64,000 nucleotides of DNA from Fuerstiella sp. (GTDB taxonomy: Bacteria; Planctomycetota; Planctomycetia; Planctomycetales; Planctomycetaceae): positions 1-64,000 of the forward strand of contig JAKVAZ010000019.1 of assembly GCA_022447225.1 (NCBI GenBank), given 5' to 3'. The notes beneath the pieces are model-generated. The model ran no database searches. It had not been told where the DNA came from and was given only the letters and a program-made list of their open reading frames with translations. A program made the translations under genes and the position numbers. Below, one piece after another: positions 1,583 through 16,657 of this stretch. Within the stretch, counting starts at the first letter, position 1, and each line of letters opens with the position of its first letter.

Positions 1583-2737
1583 ATGGTGCTGTTCAGTGAC
1601 ACGACACTGCGTGACGGGGAGCAGATGCCCGGGGCGACTCTGGAACCCGATGACAAACTTCAGATTGCCAAAGCGCTGGAGGCAGCAGGAGTGCACTCAC
1701 TGGATGCCGGATTTCCGGCGTCCAGTGAACAGGATGTCGATGCCATCCGGAAAATGATCGGAGTCATTAGGAAGCCGGTCCTCACCGCATTGTGTCGTAC
1801 AGTCAATTCAGATGTTGACGCAGCAGATCGGGCTTTGGATGGAAATCCGGATCATAAGCGCGGTGTGAGTCTGTTCTGTGGTACTAGTCCGCTGCACCGG
1901 AAACACAAACTTGAAAAAAATCAGACTCAGGTTCTTAAAATCATTACGGATTCCATCAGTTATGCCGCTGATCGTTTCAGAATCATTGCGTTCAGTCCGG
2001 AAGACGCCAGTCGCACTGAACTTGATTACCTGTGCAAATGCTACGTGGAAGCAATCGACAGTGGGGCCACAACCATCGGTTTTCCGGACACTGTCGGTGT
2101 GCTGACGCCGGAAAAGGCGGCCGATTTTATTAAGGCGATCCAGGATAAAGTTCATAACCTGGATCGCGCTCTGCTGGCGGTTCATTTCCATAACGATCTG
2201 GGTCTGGCTGTTGCCAATACACTGGCCTGCGTCAAACAGGGAGCCAATGTCGTGCAGTGCACGGTCAACGGAATTGGAGAGCGTGCCGGTAATGCATCAC
2301 TGGAGGAGGTTGCGATGGCCCTTGCCATGAATCCGGACCAGTACAATCGTACGTTTCGTCTGGACACAACCAAACTGGCCCCGTTGTGTAAGCTGGTTGC
2401 CGAACTCACCAGCGTTATGATTCCTCGTATGAAACCAGTGGGTGGTTCGAATGTCTTTGCCACCGAAGCCGGAATTCATCAGGATGGTTTGTTGAAGCAT
2501 CCCGACACGTATCTGCCGTTTCGCCCGGAAGTTGTCGGAGCTGACGGGATTCAACTGGTCCTCGGTCGTCACAGTGGTCGACGAGCCGTGGCGCACCGGC
2601 TGGAATCCATTGGAATGTTGTTCGACGAGAGCGGAGTGATGGAAGTTGTGGAGTTGATCAAGCAGTTGCCGAAAGGGACTGTGGTGGACGATACCTTGCT
2701 GCAGGAGCTGGCACAGTCGTTGCGAGAACCAGCGTGA
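1583..2737 (+). CDS. 2-isopropylmalate synthase family protein, short form without regulatory domain
   Basis: Alpha-isopropylmalate/homocitrate synthase family: condenses acetyl-CoA with a 2-oxoacid. Counted from ATG 1583 (384 residues), the HMGL-like TIM barrel opens at once with [10 protein letters not shown], and the metal-binding HFHND and the NGIGERAGN and GIHQDG segments all follow, so the catalytic barrel is complete. The sequence stops shortly after LGRHSGR; the C-terminal LeuA allosteric domain (about 120 residues) is missing. Sequence details such as DAGFPASS and [10 protein letters not shown] are closest to isopropylmalate synthase, but leucine feedback would be impossible, and homocitrate or citramalate synthesis cannot be excluded. 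An in-frame ATG at 1493 would add 30 residues without family resemblance. The stop overlaps the next gene's GTG start by four bases, implying coupled translation. Confidence 0.8.
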
Positions 2738-3903
2738 ACTCCGGCACGATTTATCTGGACAATGCGACGACGAGCTTTCCCAAGGCGGAAGCTGTCTACG
2801 ACGCGGTCGACATGTACCAGCGGCGAACCGGGGCGGCGTTTGCTCGCGGCACACACGGATCTGAAACGGCGGATTCTGTGGCGGACCGCTGTCGCCATCA
2901 ACTGGCGCAAATGATTGGTGCCCAGGATCCCCGATCGGTCGCATTTACATTCAATGCGACCGATGGATTGAACCTGTTACTCAGAGGGGTTCTGCGCAGT
3001 GGAGATCGAGTGCTGACCACCACACTGGAGCACAATTCCGTGGTCCGTCCGCTGGAGCAACTTAGGGACCGGTTGTCGATTACTGTTGACTACGTGCCAT
3101 TTGATTCCGCCTCAGGAGTCGTCGACAGCAATCAATTCGAACAAAGCTGTCGAACGCACTCACCATCGCTGGTTATTCTTAACATGGCGTCCAATGTCAC
3201 CGGCATTGTGCAGCCGCTACCGCAGCTGATCCGGGCGGCAAAGTCTGTTGCTGCAATTGTTCTGGTCGACGGGGCCCAGGCTGTTGGCCACGTGCCGCTC
3301 AATGTCCAGACACTTGATCTCGATCTTCTGGCCGCTCCCGGTCACAAGGCCCTGGGCGGTCCGTTGGGCACTGGTTTCGTTTATGTCAGGCCTTCTGTGA
3401 CAGATCGTATGATTTCCTTTCGTTGTGGTGGTACCGGAACAGACAGCAGTTCCGTGCAACAGCCGGTACTGATGCCTGAATTGCTGGAAAGCGGGAATCT
3501 GAACATGCCGGGGATTGCCGGACTGGCTGCGGCGCTGAGTTGGCGCAACACGGATGAATTTCGGACTCTGCTGGAGCGGCATCATCGGCAGATTCCGGAC
3601 CTGATTCGACGACTCAGTGAGATCCCCAGGGTCACTGTCTGTTGTGAACCTTCGGTTGATCAGAACGTTGGTGTGGTGTCATTTTTTATCTCGGGGATCG
3701 ACCCACACGAGGTCGCGGTCATTCTGAGTCAGTCATTTGGAATTCAGTGCCGAGCAGGTCTGCACTGCGCTCCGCTGGCTCACCGCACTCTGGGTACCGA
3801 GTCTTCCGGGGGCACGATTCGCCTGAGTCCCGGTTTGTTTACCACAGACGAAGAAATCGATCAGGCCGTTGATGCCGTGTCGCAGATTGTTAGCGGATAT
3901 TGA
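2734..3903 (+). CDS. Cysteine desulfurase-like class V aminotransferase
   Basis: PLP enzyme of the NifS/SufS/CsdA superfamily, 389 residues. Visible: His100 stacking on PLP, the [10 protein letters not shown] strand (Asp179, Gln182), the Schiff-base lysine in [10 protein letters not shown] (Lys205), and a C-terminal loop [11 protein letters not shown] with the persulfide cysteine at 345. The [11 protein letters not shown] signature points to the cysteine desulfurase family typified by TIGR01977 rather than IscS. The GTG start overlaps the stop of the LeuA-like gene (GTGA). Expected reaction: L-cysteine to alanine plus enzyme-bound sulfur; selenocysteine lyase activity is an alternative. No scaffold protein such as IscU or SufU lies beside it. 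Confidence 0.86.
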
Positions 3904-3993
3904 GTGGCCCGTGTGTGTGGTGTCCGTGAGAACATGACATCAACGACGTTTTATCTGTATTTGTACAGGTGAACCGCTCTGAGACGAGTCTGG

Positions 3994-3999
3994 TATAAT
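3994..3999 (+). promoter_or_regulatory. Possible -10 box upstream of guaA
   Basis: A perfect TATAAT lies about 190 bases upstream of the guaA start. There is no good -35 hexamer at 16-18 bases, so this is a weak prediction. It would give a leader of about 180 bases; I see no purine riboswitch consensus in it. Confidence 0.3.
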
Positions 4000-4186
4000 G
4001 CCATCGTTCCACACCAAAAGCAGGAGGTTGGGACGCTGTTCAGGCAGGCCTTTGGCGGCGGAATGCAGTGGCTTCGGTTGAACCGTCTTCCGGCGATTGT
4101 GAAAAACGTGACGTCTGCTAAGCTGCGTCGTTTTCCCGAGTTCCACGGCTGTGATTGGGCCGTGCTATCGATGAGAAGACGGATGG

Positions 4187-5782
4187 ATGTTGGATTCTGC
4201 TTCAGCCAGTGACGCTTGCCTGACGAGCAGTCCTGCACATCACCAGGCAGACTTGATCCTGGTGCTCGATTTTGGAGGACAGACGACGCAGCTGATCGCT
4301 CGCCGCGTTCGTGACCGGAATGTCTTTTGTCAAATTGTTCGGCACGATCTGACAGCCGAGCGAATTCAGGAGTTGCAGCCCAAAGGGCTCATCCTGTCAG
4401 GAGGCCCTTCCAGTGTCTACGACGATGGTGCGCCCGGGATCGATCCGGGAATCTTCGAGCTCGGCCTGCCGATTCTGGGGATCTGCTATGGAATGCAGAT
4501 CAGCTGTCAGTTTTTGGGAGGCACGATCCTTGCAGCCGACTCACGTGAGTTCGGGCGTGCTCCCTGTCGGGTCGAGTCGGACAACACGTTATTTAAAAAT
4601 ATTCCGCAGACATTTACTGCGTGGATGAGTCATGGCGATCAGGTTGGAGAGCTTTCTGACGGGTTCGAGACAATTGCCAGTACCGAAACTTGTCCAAATG
4701 CAGCCGTGCGGCACGTCAGTCGCCCCGTCTATGGTTTGCAGTTTCATCCGGAAGTCACTCATACCGATTTTGGAGCGCAGCTCCTGGAAAATTTTGTCGT
4801 TGAGATCTGCGGCTGTCAGGGTTCCTGGCATATCAGTTCACTGATTGAACAGCAGTCGAAGATCATTCGTGAGCGTGTTGGTGAAGACAGAGTGATTTGC
4901 GGGCTATCCGGCGGGGTGGATTCGTCCGTCACGGCGGCGTTGATTGCCCGATCGATTGGTACTCAATTGTCCTGTATATTTGTGGACAACGGACTGCTGC
5001 GGAAAGGCGAACGAGAACAGGTTGTCCGTGAATTCACCAGTCACTTCCGTACCGATCTGCGTGTGGTAGACGCCCGGGAACGTTTCCTGACCGAACTAGC
5101 GGGTGTGACCGATCCCCAAACCAAACGGAAGATCATCGGGCGGGTGTTCATTGAGTGTTTTCGGGATGCGGCAAAGTCGATTCCAAATGCCAGGTATCTT
5201 GCTCAGGGAACTCTCTATCCGGATGTGATTGAAAGCGGTGCCAATCCGGACGGCCCGGCCGCGACAATCAAGGCTCACCACAATGTGGGCGGGCTGCCGG
5301 ATGAACTGGGTTTTGAATTGATCGAACCGCTTCGGGATATGTTTAAGGATGAAGTTCGCCGCATGGGGCTGGAACTGGGGCTGCCGGAGAAACTTGTTTG
5401 GCGGCACCCCTTCCCCGGACCTGGTCTGGCTGTTCGCTGCCTGGGCGAAATTACCGAAGAACGACTGGAGATCGTGCGCGAGGCCGACACGATTCTGATT
5501 GAGGAACTGCACGCAGCAAATCTTTACCGGGAAATTCAGCAGGCGTTTGTTGTGTTGCTGCCGGTTCAGTCAGTGGGAGTCATGGGAGACGATCGTACTT
5601 ACGAGAATGTGGCTGCGGTCAGAGCCGTTCAGACAGATGACTTTATGACGGCCGACTGGTTTGATTTTCCACACGACGTTCTGCAGCGAGTTTCAACACG
5701 TATTATCAATACGGTTCGCGGAATCAACCGAGTTGTTTACGATGTCAGCTCGAAGCCGCCTGCGACGATTGAGTGGGAATAG
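4187..5782 (+). CDS. guaA: GMP synthase (glutamine-hydrolysing)
   Basis: Converts XMP to GMP using glutamine and ATP, the last step of guanine nucleotide synthesis. Full length at 531 residues. N-terminal class I glutamine amidotransferase: nucleophile Cys100 in GICYGMQ, with His187 and Glu189 in FHPEV completing the triad. ATP-pyrophosphatase domain: PP-loop SGGVDSS at 241-247. The C-terminal dimerisation domain ends in the family's typical KPPATIEWE. The first about 20 residues are a variable extension; the ATG at 4187 is preceded only by a weak GGATGG. It stands alone, between the desulfurase gene and a thioredoxin gene, not in a purine operon. Confidence 0.97.
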
Positions 5783-10690: not shown

Positions 10691-10987
10691 TCATTCTGTC
10701 GGCAAAGCAAATGGATCGGTCACCATTGGTTTTTCGATCTTGCCCGATCGGATGAGACTTACAGGAATTCGTCGCCGGACGACTTGACCATCTTCGATGA
10801 TTCGAATCTTCTGGATATTTCGCTTAAATTTTCGTGCGGAAATACCTGTGGTCTTGCGCCCGTTTCCGCCCAGATACTTGGGTTTTCCACGCTGGCTAAG
10901 CCTGTTGCCTCGTCCCGGCTTCAGATCACCGTATAACTCAAGCTGCTTTGCTCGTTTGATTCGCTTGTTTTTTTTGAGTGTGCTCAT
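10691..10987 (-). CDS. rpmB: 50S ribosomal protein L28, cysteine-free form
   Basis: 98 residues, strongly basic. The centre and C-terminus match bL28 of the actinobacterial/planctomycete type: [20 protein letters not shown], then [18 protein letters not shown], where the usual sequence has a V-C-T-x-C-I-R-S-G zinc-binding end. Here both those cysteines are replaced, and the N-terminal C-x-x-C is missing too, so the protein has no cysteine at all. This is the zinc-independent (C-minus) form. The N-terminus ([20 protein letters not shown]) is unusual for L28. Free-standing gene, not paired with rpmG. The ATG is preceded by a closely spaced AGG. Confidence 0.78.
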
Positions 10988-11339: not shown

Positions 11340-12335
11340 ATGAAAATAACAATTTTATGCGTATCCCTGATTCTGTCAGGAGTCTCAGGTGTACACAGTC
11401 AGGTTCGTGGCCAATCGACGGAAATACTGGATGTTGAGCATGCGGATGCGGACTTTGCGGTCCAGGGTGAGTACTCGGGCACGATCGAAGTCAATGGCAA
11501 TGATGTGAAACTTGGTGTTCAGGTGATTGCAGATGGTGACGGGAAATTCCGTTCGGTTGGATATTCAGGTGGTCTTCCGGGCGATGGATGGAACGGGCTG
11601 GATGAAACCAAATTCCCAGGATCCGGGGAAATTATTGATGGTGTGTGTTTCCTCAAATCGAATAGTGGAGCACAGAGCGGCGAGATCAGGGACGGCATTC
11701 TGACGTTGTCGGCAGGTGGAAACGAACTGGGGGAACTGAACAAGGTAAAGAGGAAGAGCCCCACACTGGGTGCGGAAGCTCCCAATGGTGCTGTTGTCCT
11801 GTTTGACGGATCCAATGCCGACAACTTTGTTGAGGAGGACCTTCTGGACGACAATCTGTTGAAACAGGGAGCTACCAGCAGACAGAAATTCGGCAGCTAC
11901 AAACTGCACCTGGAATTCATGCTGTCTTACTCGCCGAAAGCACGGGGCCAGCGTCGCTCTAACAGCGGGTGCTATCACCAGGGGCGCTATGAAGTCCAGA
12001 TTCTGGACTCATTCGGACTGGAAGGCGTCGATCACGAATGTGGTGGGATCTATAAGATTGCCTCACCGGCCGTTAACATGTGCCTTCCGCCACTGTCATG
12101 GCAGACGTATGACGTGGAATTTCAGAAGGCTGTCTACGATCAGGCAGGCCGAAAGACCCAAAATGCCCGGATCACGGTTCTGCATAATGGTGTCAAGATT
12201 CATGACGCACAGGAACTCGGTCACGCTACCACAGCATATATAGTCTCCGAAGGTCCGGAGGATGGTCCGATCTATCTGCAGGATCACAGTAATCAGGTTC
12301 GATTTCGGAACATCTGGGTGCAGCCGGTTCCGTAA
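11340..12335 (+). CDS. Exported DUF1080 (3-keto-disaccharide hydrolase fold) protein
   Basis: 331 residues. Sec signal peptide at 1-20 (Lys at position 2, hydrophobic core ILCVSLILSGVSGV). About 25-140 is a beta-rich region with a NGNDVKLGVQVIADGDGKF pattern resembling the N-terminal part of several planctomycete DUF1080 proteins. From about 150 the concanavalin-like DUF1080 domain: VVLFDGSNADNF, then YKLHLEFMLSYSP, SNSGCYHQGRYEVQILDSF, WQTYDVEF, NGVKIHD, GPIYLQDH and VRFRNIWVQ. The domain occurs in periplasmic proteins linked to sugar and glycan use in planctomycetes; some members cleave 3-keto-glycosides. No oxidoreductase partner lies beside it. Confidence 0.86.
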   Translation: MKITILCVSLILSGVSGVHSQVRGQSTEILDVEHADADFAVQGEYSGTIEVNGNDVKLGVQVIADGDGKFRSVGYSGGLPGDGWNGLDETKFPGSGEIIDGVCFLKSNSGAQSGEIRDGILTLSAGGNELGELNKVKRKSPTLGAEAPNGAVVLFDGSNADNFVEEDLLDDNLLKQGATSRQKFGSYKLHLEFMLSYSPKARGQRRSNSGCYHQGRYEVQILDSFGLEGVDHECGGIYKIASPAVNMCLPPLSWQTYDVEFQKAVYDQAGRKTQNARITVLHNGVKIHDAQELGHATTAYIVSEGPEDGPIYLQDHSNQVRFRNIWVQPVP

Positions 12336-12489
12336 ACGAGTGGCGACAGTGTGACACTGTGTTGCGGACGACACTGTGTTCATGTTCAGGAAGCGTCACG
12401 TTTGGTAAGTGACCTGAAATTTGCCATCGTCGTTCTGATCTGGTCCTGGTTTCTGTGGAATACGATTGAATCGGTGTCGGCTGATAACG

Positions 12490-13098
12490 CTTAGACACGT
12501 GCGTTCGTGGCCACGGACCATCCGGCGCCCCGCGAAGCCGGTCTGGAGATTCTTCGACAGGGTGGAAGCGTGGTGGATGCCGCGATCGCTTCGTCGTTTG
12601 CTCTGTCGGTGTGTCGCCCGGGCAGCTGCGGGATTGATGGCGGAGGTTTCATGCTTATCCGGGATGCCCGGACACAGGAAGCTGTCGCGCCGGATGATCG
12701 GGAGACGGCTCCTGTTGCGGCCACACGTGATATGTTCAAAACACAAACGGGGCCGGAACCTGACAGTGTTCGGGACGGTCGCGCTGTTTTTGCCAATGGT
12801 GCTTCCGGCGGTCCGCGAATTATTTCAGCGACAGTTACAGGTGACACTGAACCATTTTGTATTCGGCATGTTACCCTCCCAGGCAGTGGCTGCACGAAGG
12901 TTTCATCATCAGTGGTTTCCGAATGTACTCCGTATGGAATCAGGAATTCCTCGGGCGGTTCATCAATTGTTGAGGCACGAGGGGCACCAGGTGGACTGGA
13001 TTTCTGCGGCGGGTATCAAGCAGTCCGTCTCTCTCCGAGCCGATGATCTGCCAGGCGCCGCTGACTTACGAAAATATGGCGGGGCAACCGGATTTTAG
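12490..13098 (+). pseudogene. ggt: Gamma-glutamyltransferase, internally deleted and frameshifted
   Basis: Two ends of a gamma-glutamyltransferase of about 550 residues survive in about 200 codons. The first part (from 12501) reads FVATDHPAPREAGLEILRQG, then VVDAAIA, GIDGGGFMLI and APVAATRDM, the usual N-terminus. Around 12760-12800 it jumps directly to the C-terminal GASGGPRIIS. A one-base insertion near 12834 then shifts the frame: the next frame reads LQVTLNHFVFGMLPSQAV, RFHHQWFPNVLRMESGIP, GHQVDW and GAADLRKYGGATGF, and stops at 13098, the true C-terminus. The autocatalytic threonine region lies in the deleted part. A stop codon just upstream also removes the original signal peptide and start. 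Confidence 0.88.
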
Positions 13099-13195: not shown

Positions 13196-14131
13196 CTACA
13201 ACGGAGTGCGCCAGCTGATGTAAGCGAAATGATCGATGTTTTCAGTGGCTCTGTTGATCCTTGTTCGGACCGTACCATCCTGCTCAGATCCGTTACGCGG
13301 TTCGAGGTACAGGATGACTCCGTTGGATACCCACGACAGAATCTCACGATTCCAGCATTCAATGCCATACGATGGTGCGGGGTCAAACACCATCAATTCC
13401 CGATCATTTCGGGAACTCAGAACAAGTACGGAATGTCCCCTGCTGCCGTGAAAACCATGATCTTTGGCGTTCTCGATCAGATCCGGATCAATATTGATCG
13501 ACAGTAGAGCCGGAGACCCGTCAAGGTTCATTATCGCATCACGGCTAAAAGGCAGGGCCATTACATCCCAGGATGTTTCCTGAGTCATTAATTTAAGCCC
13601 GCGATACAAACCCATCCAGTGCGTGCCCTTCCTGGTGAGACACAGTCGGGCCATTTCAGCTTCCGATGCTGCAATCCCGTGAAGTCTCAGCAGGGATGCA
13701 GCGACGGCAGGGGAGCATGTGTAGGGAGTCGACTGAGAAATCAAAAGACTGTCGGGAGCTGCGGGTGCGCAACGAGGAGCCTGTCCAACAATCGGAGCAA
13801 CGATCGAGTAACTTGCCAGCAGGAGAGTGAGTGACCCAAGGAACAAACGCCGAGTCCGACTGATTTCTGTGGCAGACCAATACATCCCTGTAAAAAAACT
13901 GGCGATCATCGGAAGCCAGTTGGCCAGTACGATCAGCGCTGCGTGCGGGAGTATTAAAGTGACAAGAGACTGGTTCCAGATGAAAGACAAATAAAGCGTT
14001 GACGCTGTCACAACCACGATCTGAGCGACGAGCCGCGATCTGTTCGATGCGAATTGTCCGAGCCTTCGTCCCGTGATCATCGCCCACAGAGAAGTGAGAG
14101 TCATCAGCACGAGGGCCAAAAAGAGATCCAT
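13196..14131 (-). CDS. Membrane-anchored C39-like cysteine peptidase
   Basis: 311 residues. The N-terminal 115 hold about four hydrophobic helices (MDLFLALVLMTLTSLWAM; VAQIVVVTASTLYLSFIW; LVTLILPHAALIVLANWLPM; LFLGSLTLLLASYSIVAPIV). The soluble part follows the C39 papain-like fold: oxyanion Gln133 and nucleophile Cys139 in ISQSTPYTCSPA, then His233 in RGHSVLVLS and Asp250 in MVFDPAP. All four catalytic positions are filled, so activity is expected. Unlike bacteriocin-processing C39 enzymes it is not fused to an ABC transporter. The domain probably faces the periplasm; the substrate is unknown. Confidence 0.75.
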   Translation of the reverse strand: MDLFLALVLMTLTSLWAMITGRRLGQFASNRSRLVAQIVVVTASTLYLSFIWNQSLVTLILPHAALIVLANWLPMIASFFTGMYWSATEISRTRRLFLGSLTLLLASYSIVAPIVGQAPRCAPAAPDSLLISQSTPYTCSPAVAASLLRLHGIAASEAEMARLCLTRKGTHWMGLYRGLKLMTQETSWDVMALPFSRDAIMNLDGSPALLSINIDPDLIENAKDHGFHGSRGHSVLVLSSRNDRELMVFDPAPSYGIECWNREILSWVSNGVILYLEPRNGSEQDGTVRTRINRATENIDHFAYISWRTPL

Positions 14132-14851: not shown

Positions 14852-16657
14852 ATGGGAGTTCACATGTTCGGGCGATACGACCGAAAACACTTCAGTTTTA
14901 CCCTGATAGCGCTCGTCGCGGTTTGGGGCGCAGCGAATGGAACTGTCAATGCGTTAGAATTGCTTACGCCGCCTCAGGAATTTCAGTCCCGGTCGCTGGG
15001 AAAGACTGTGCCGGAGGCCACGGCTGAAAAACTTTCGGCTGCTCTCTTCGGACTTTACAATCTGGATCAGGGAGTCGATGAACGTGTGGCTGCAGGGGAA
15101 CAGGTTCGAGCCATGCTTCGTGATGATGCTCTGCGGGACCTTCGATCGTCGGTAGGGCGTCGAGTGAATTTGATTCTCGCCGGACTTCATGCAGAAGCCA
15201 TTGAGTCGCTTTCAACACAGGAAGTTGATGCCATCAAATTGATCGTGGCGGCCGCCAATCGATTTGAAGAGACGTCGGATGTGTCGGATGCGGCCGCTGT
15301 ACGGACCGCATGGCAGCAATTGAGATCCAACACCACGGTGATGGAAATCCTGCGCCCGGTGTTTATGACACACTATTTTAATCACAATGTGCATGTGACT
15401 CTGTCGGAACCAATACTGTCTCGTTTTGTCAGTGACTATCGCACGCGCAACGGATCTATTGCCGAGTGCATTCTGGGAGCCTGGGTAACCGGGTCTCAGG
15501 AGACCAATGCCAGTGTTTCTGCAGATATCAGGCGTTCAACAGGCAAAGGTCATTTTTTGCTGACGTTGAATGGCCAAACATCGTCGAATACACGGGGGAG
15601 AAGAAAGCCGGCGACGATTTTTACTCGTGGAAATCACACATTCCGGATCGACGCCCCGGTTTATTTTGACGGCGAGTCTCTCCGCAGCGGAGAGGCCAAA
15701 ATTGACGTAAATACAAACAATCGTACGGTTGGTGTAAAAACCGATTATGACGGATGGCCGATTGTGGGCTCGTTAGTGCGCAAGATCGCTCGACAGAAAG
15801 CTCAGGAAAAGCGTGGTCAGTCAGAATTCATTGCTGCGCGGAAAATTGCGAATCAGGCATTGCCGGAATTCAACAGCGAAATCAATGAACGATTTGCCGA
15901 AGCCAATTCCTCTATCCAGGACGAGCTGTTTGCCGGACTTCGTGCCAAAGGGGTTGGACCGGATTCGATTTCATCGCGGTCCAGCGAGTCACATCTTGCC
16001 GTCAGTTCCCGGATGATGGGGATGGCTCGCCTGGGAGGAACCGGTCAGCCTTTCGCTCCGTTGCCTGAACGCGGTGTTGCTATTCAGGTGCATGAAACGG
16101 CGGTCAACAATCTGATTGACGGGTTGGAACTGGGTGGGCGTGCAATTCGTGAAGATGAGTTCATGGAGGTGCTGTCCGGATCACTCAGTGAGTTACTCCG
16201 GCGAGACATCAAACTTGACGACACAGACGCAGTTTCTGAAGTTTCTGATGATGACTCTCGGGCAACATTTGTTTTTGACGAAGAAAACCCGGTCCGTGTT
16301 CGGATCGATAAGGACGAGGTCGTATTGGTGCTGCAGATCAGGATCGAGCAGGAAGGAAAAGAAACTCTTCCGAAACACAGAATCGAAGTTCCGATTGGAC
16401 TGAGAATTGAGGATTCCGATATCGTTCTGCTGCCTCCGGAAAAACTGACCGACATACGTACAACTGCTATGGAACGCGTCAGTGCAATCCGCAGAGCCGG
16501 AACTGCCAATCAGATTCGACGAATTATCAGAGCAAGACTGCCCGAACGAAGACTGGACGGTGGAGTCGATATTGAGGCATCGGGCAACAAGACAATTCGT
16601 CTCCAGACGATCGCTCTCAGCAGTCAGGACGGCTGGCTGTATATTGAGTTGCAATAG
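14852..16657 (+). CDS. Exported hypothetical protein, 601 residues
   Basis: N-terminal Sec signal peptide (hydrophobic FSFTLIALVAVWGAANGTVNA, cleavage near residue 35). No transmembrane segment after it. The middle contains an Arg/Lys-rich stretch (RKIARQKAQEKRGQ) followed by a helical NSEINERFAEANSSIQDELF region; near 450 an acidic stretch (DDTDAVSEVSDDDSRATFVF) precedes a regular beta-strand pattern (VRVRIDKDEVVLVLQIRIEQ). It resembles large uncharacterised secreted proteins of planctomycetes, but I can name no domain. An ATG at 14864 is an alternative start and gives a better-shaped signal peptide. Probably monocistronic. Function unknown. Confidence 0.75.
   Translation: MGVHMFGRYDRKHFSFTLIALVAVWGAANGTVNALELLTPPQEFQSRSLGKTVPEATAEKLSAALFGLYNLDQGVDERVAAGEQVRAMLRDDALRDLRSSVGRRVNLILAGLHAEAIESLSTQEVDAIKLIVAAANRFEETSDVSDAAAVRTAWQQLRSNTTVMEILRPVFMTHYFNHNVHVTLSEPILSRFVSDYRTRNGSIAECILGAWVTGSQETNASVSADIRRSTGKGHFLLTLNGQTSSNTRGRRKPATIFTRGNHTFRIDAPVYFDGESLRSGEAKIDVNTNNRTVGVKTDYDGWPIVGSLVRKIARQKAQEKRGQSEFIAARKIANQALPEFNSEINERFAEANSSIQDELFAGLRAKGVGPDSISSRSSESHLAVSSRMMGMARLGGTGQPFAPLPERGVAIQVHETAVNNLIDGLELGGRAIREDEFMEVLSGSLSELLRRDIKLDDTDAVSEVSDDDSRATFVFDEENPVRVRIDKDEVVLVLQIRIEQEGKETLPKHRIEVPIGLRIEDSDIVLLPPEKLTDIRTTAMERVSAIRRAGTANQIRRIIRARLPERRLDGGVDIEASGNKTIRLQTIALSSQDGWLYIELQ

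Follow-up and report, generated by a model that had tools for sequence, protein, structure and literature searches.

A gamma-glutamyltransferase pseudogene in Fuerstiella sp., with an intact counterpart in one congener and a differently broken one in another

Positions 12402-13098 (+) of the window, i.e., the 64,000-nucleotide stretch of a Fuerstiella sp. contig analyzed here, contain both recognizable ends of a gamma-glutamyltransferase (GGT; PF01019), which raises the question of whether a working enzyme is still encoded there and, if not, how the gene was lost. The frame of 12507-13046 matches PF01019 positions 2-70 (E 3.2e-22 in Pfam) and that of 12466-13098 matches positions 424-512 (E 7.5e-14), both far above chance. 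The longest frames at the locus are of 179 and 210 amino acids and hold one family end each, and an open frame of about 520-610 residues, as in functional GGT, is absent. The locus is thus a pseudogene. A search of the whole genome returned both pieces again and, on another contig (C22), a single full-length GGT.

The genus group that was searched consists of three genomes, i.e., the genome to which the window belongs (G000), G001, and G002, a Fuerstiella metagenome-assembled genome from an independent assembly. G001 contains an intact GGT of 613 amino acids (C176:6412-8253; match place as in the public contig WFTL01000176.1), which scores 542 bits against PF01019 and is encoded downstream of a 3-keto-disaccharide hydrolase family gene (PF06439). 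Since this upstream gene is present in G000, G001, and G002, the relic is in the orthologous position; the G001 contig ends at 8,527 bp, and synteny there covers the upstream side. Outside the genus group, the pairing of the two genes was not seen: it was found in 1/30 loci fetched with GGT (G001) and in 2/80 fetched with the hydrolase (G002 and G001), in a survey limited by flanks of no more than about 1.5 kb around the GGT loci and by the shortness of many of the other loci.

Comparison with the intact orthologue agrees with the initial annotation, in which the sequence was described as what is left of a GGT gene after a deletion in its middle and the insertion of one base. The disabling lesions, read from a single assembly and all three seen in one genome only, are a TAG codon at 12492-12494, the loss of about 1,017 bp, and, near 12834, a +1 frameshift. 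The locus is composed as follows:

11340-12335 (+): neighbour, an intact gene of the 3-keto-disaccharide hydrolase family (PF06439); in 3/3 genomes of the genus group, it is located upstream of GGT or its relic
12402-12491 (+): signal-peptide-like leader, read from TTG at 12402 as the presumed start codon, with translation LVSDLKFAIVVLIWSWFLWNTIESVSADNA ahead of the stop; a similar leader is at the same place in G002
12492-12494 (+): premature TAG
12495-12767 (+): surviving N-terminal part of GGT, PF01019 positions 2-70
12768-12774 (+): in-frame deletion junction, about 1,017 bp gone, inside an imperfect repeat of two arms, with the arms of G001 and G002 aligned
12775-12833 (+): first stretch of what survives of the C-terminal part, still in the N-terminal frame (DGRAVFANGASGGPRIISA)
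12834 (+): approximate site of the +1 frameshift
12835-13098 (+): remainder of the C-terminal part, shifted by one frame, up to the TAG at 13096-13098, PF01019 positions 424-512

The relic had been taken to begin at 12490; with the leader read from the presumed TTG start, it begins about 90 bases earlier, and the TAG at 12492-12494 had been missed. The frame of the N-terminal part extends via GASGGPRIISA to about 12833, where the C-terminal part resumes one frame over, in keeping with the single extra base previously placed near 12834. The predicted C-terminus GGATGF also proved correct, as it is followed by the TAG at 13096-13098. The N-terminus was thought to be joined straight to GASGGPRIIS. 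The same frame does run through this motif, but the join is located about ten codons earlier. There, G000 reads SVRDGRAV, i.e., SVR/DGRAV, whereas the upstream arm is SVRGGMAV in G001 and SVRGGLAV in G002, and the downstream arm is VVRDGRAV in G001. The break was placed at 12768-12774 because the S fits the upstream arm and the sequence from D onward fits the downstream arm. Aligned with the G001 protein, the surviving N-terminal part shows 63% identity across 105 residues, an alignment that runs a few residues past the join. The DNA alignment with G001 is good as far as the junction; beyond it, the C-terminal part of G001 is misplaced, and this part was compared as protein. Matches of the 12466 frame to the N-terminal regions of the G001 and G002 genes, one of them with a TGA in G001, were rejected as off-frame shadows.

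Measured by the G001 gene, the deletion comprises 1,017 bp, which is divisible by three, and thus keeps the frame while removing about 339 codons. Among these is the TSHFSVID stretch (G001 residue 426), which includes the presumed catalytic threonine, assigned by analogy with the Escherichia coli enzyme as the first residue of the small subunit. Judged by its sequence, the relic is not expected to have GGT activity. Over half of the protein is absent, and the lost gene can therefore not be rebuilt from the relic, contrary to what the initial annotation had supposed; since only relatives show the lost part, rebuilding needs these, and the nearest intact one is 44-66% identical at the protein level over the surviving pieces.

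At the junction, two similar in-phase stretches meet, and slippage or recombination between them may have caused the large deletion. However, the repeat is weak, as 2% of comparable site pairs equal it when runs with one mismatch are considered and 15% do so by exact match, with the G001 sequence serving as a stand-in for the ancestors and the statistics computed after the junctions were known. Therefore, we infer slippage only tentatively for G000.

A different GGT relic is present at the same locus in G002 (C211, about 2318-3343; match place as in JAKVAY010000008.1 of Fuerstiella sp. ALOHA_ZT_14). It carries TGA codons at positions 2594 and 2858 of locus L033 and has lost two segments in frame, one of about 255 bp and one of about 420 bp; no frameshift was seen in it. 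The deletion of about 255 bp is located at an exact repeat of eight bases, GAAGCGAT, which, on the same basis as above, is equalled by about 0.2% of comparable site pairs, whilst that of about 420 bp is without a clear repeat. In the surviving parts, no lesion common to both relics was seen. GASGGPRIIS is kept in G000 and lost in G002, and the stretch after VRGG.AV is kept in G002 and lost in G000; as each relic retains a stretch that the other has lost, the deletions are separate events. The TSHFSVID stretch is gone from both, and all three large deletions in the two relics keep the frame.

In a maximum-likelihood tree of 34 sequences, based on 175 columns present in both relics, the relics group together (support 100) and are joined with the G001 orthologue (92), far from the paralogues. 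The intact paralogue in G000 (C22:3175-4899) matches PF01019 over its full length and scores just above the cut-off of TIGR00066. The relic was considered as a broken copy of this paralogue, but this was rejected because it groups with the G001 orthologue, to which the paralogue, a member of a distant subfamily, is only 33-35% identical. Just upstream of the paralogue (positions 3175-4899 of locus L036), a frame of 402 amino acids (positions 1710-2918) reads like what we take to be an enolase-superfamily protein of the mandelate racemase type.

Thus, the locus is best read as a dead gene for a secreted-type GGT, disabled by three lesions, which is intact in G001 and broken by other lesions in G002; we put the probability of this reading at about 0.95. 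Presumably, this branch of the genus came to do without the enzyme, by which selection would have been relaxed, and the gene may then have decayed separately in the two lineages.

The location of both relics at the same locus and their position as sisters in the tree would also fit a single loss before G000 and G002 diverged, after which both copies drifted; the first lesion could then have been in sequence now missing from both relics or outside the gene's coding sequence. However, the surviving parts show no common lesion, and selection on the surviving pieces offers a further argument. Between the two relics, 173 codons gave a dN of 0.165, a dS of 0.715, and a dN/dS of 0.23 (bootstrap 0.15-0.37). 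A loss that preceded the split is disfavored since drift since then would have brought dN/dS near 1. At corresponding residues, the intact paralogue of the same two genomes gave 0.06 (0.02-0.11), and five intact orthologue pairs of other genera, i.e., those out of 13 pairs with a finite dS of up to about 1.6, gave 0.03-0.09. Three genes neighboring the relic gave 0.15, 0.18, and 0.14 in the G000-G002 comparison, with intervals that overlap that of the relic. Relaxed selection on the relic is clear, therefore, only against GGT genes, and its dN/dS is little above that of the neighboring genes. Against G001, the relic pieces gave values of 0.16-0.34 with dS near saturation, which gives no branch-wise answer. 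If the divergence is treated as a simple mix of constrained and free evolution, (0.23-0.06)/(1-0.06), a share of about 0.18 (about 0.10-0.33) of it would have come after the loss, as estimated with NG86 distances over few codons. Two separate, fairly recent losses thus probably fit the relic dN/dS better than one old loss, and a single ancestral loss appears unlikely, though it retains some weight.

Two of the neighboring genes, encoding proteins of 311 amino acids (13196-14131, -; dN/dS 0.18) and 601 amino acids (14852-16657, +; dN/dS 0.14), are conserved and without a Pfam match; relatives of the former were found in 59/120 genomes of the family. Elsewhere in the window, a frame of 98 amino acids (10691-10987, -), conserved in G002, matches ribosomal protein L28 (PF00830) with an E-value of 5e-5, below the cut-off (23.6 vs. 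27 bits).

Separate decay in G000 and G002 may be part of a wider pattern, in which the genus would lose the same secreted GGT repeatedly via in-frame deletions at coding look-alike repeats, the shortened frames being tolerated or used for a while before stops and a frameshift arose; we regard this extension as quite improbable. That the shortened frames still encode something of use, e.g., a small secreted protein, would explain why three large deletions across both relics keep the frame and why the surviving pieces have a dN/dS well under 1. However, a recent loss also gives a low dN/dS, and in-phase coding repeats favor in-phase deletions; moreover, the stops and the frameshift differ in place between the species, which leaves no common shortened protein, and the catalytic region is gone in both relics, which makes such a product very hard to credit. 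An intact gene in which the lesions are errors of sequencing or assembly is similarly improbable: the lesions are those of the assembled sequence, in 33 contigs and 97% complete, but three kinds of lesion fall in one gene next to open frames under purifying selection, and an independent genome has a differently broken relic at the corresponding position.

Queried with the G001 protein, 116/120 genomes of the family gave some GGT match, and 72/120 gave a match of at least 50% identity, as counted by hand among the matches listed; the latter figure leaves out the relic of G002 and takes in a few partial matches or matches at contig edges. No internal stop was present in these 72 matches, and visible decay at the GGT locus was seen in G000 and G002 only. 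In G019, the match ends at a contig edge. A second search for relics, in 16 genomes, i.e., G000, G002, and 14 with no match or with partial or paralogue-like matches only, gave a match in 12/16. In G103, of another genus, a shard of 40 residues (C31:46178-46303; positions 1501-1626 of locus L179) shares 56% identity with a central portion of the G001 GGT and is perhaps a GGT remnant. Other GGT parts were not found within 1.5 kb of it, and it was not counted as a further relic, its surroundings being unlike the intact loci of two congeners.

Genome reduction as the driver of the loss within the genus is not supported, as G001, the smallest of the three genomes at 4.7 Mb, keeps the gene (G000, 5.4 Mb; G002, 5.3 Mb). 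Glutathione synthesis was considered as a possible clue to the lost role: TIGR01434 was found in 0/3 genomes of the genus and the broader families PF04107 and PF02955 in 3/3 each; the latter two are not known to be specific to glutathione. A literature search combining Fuerstiella with pseudogene found nothing, and none of the titles that we came across concerned this GGT gene.

Bacterial genomes commonly contain broken metabolic genes, and the relic described here is an ordinary pseudogene; what it adds, in a small way, is that a related species lost the same gene by other lesions. It is a small but clean example of what is probably parallel gene loss, with the intact gene of a congener at hand for comparison, and the frames of 179 and 210 amino acids should not be annotated as GGT enzymes. 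The GGT of G001 belongs to the same family as the relic, shares its upstream neighbour, and groups with both relics in the tree; it is encoded in a whole open frame including TSHFSVID, whereas the relic in G000 is about 339 codons short and is interrupted by a stop and a frameshift. The relic in G002 resembles that in G000 in its locus, with the upstream neighbour and the downstream gene of 311 amino acids in place, and in the absence of the catalytic region. In contrast to the relic in G000, it has two TGA codons, two smaller deletions, and no frameshift that could be seen.
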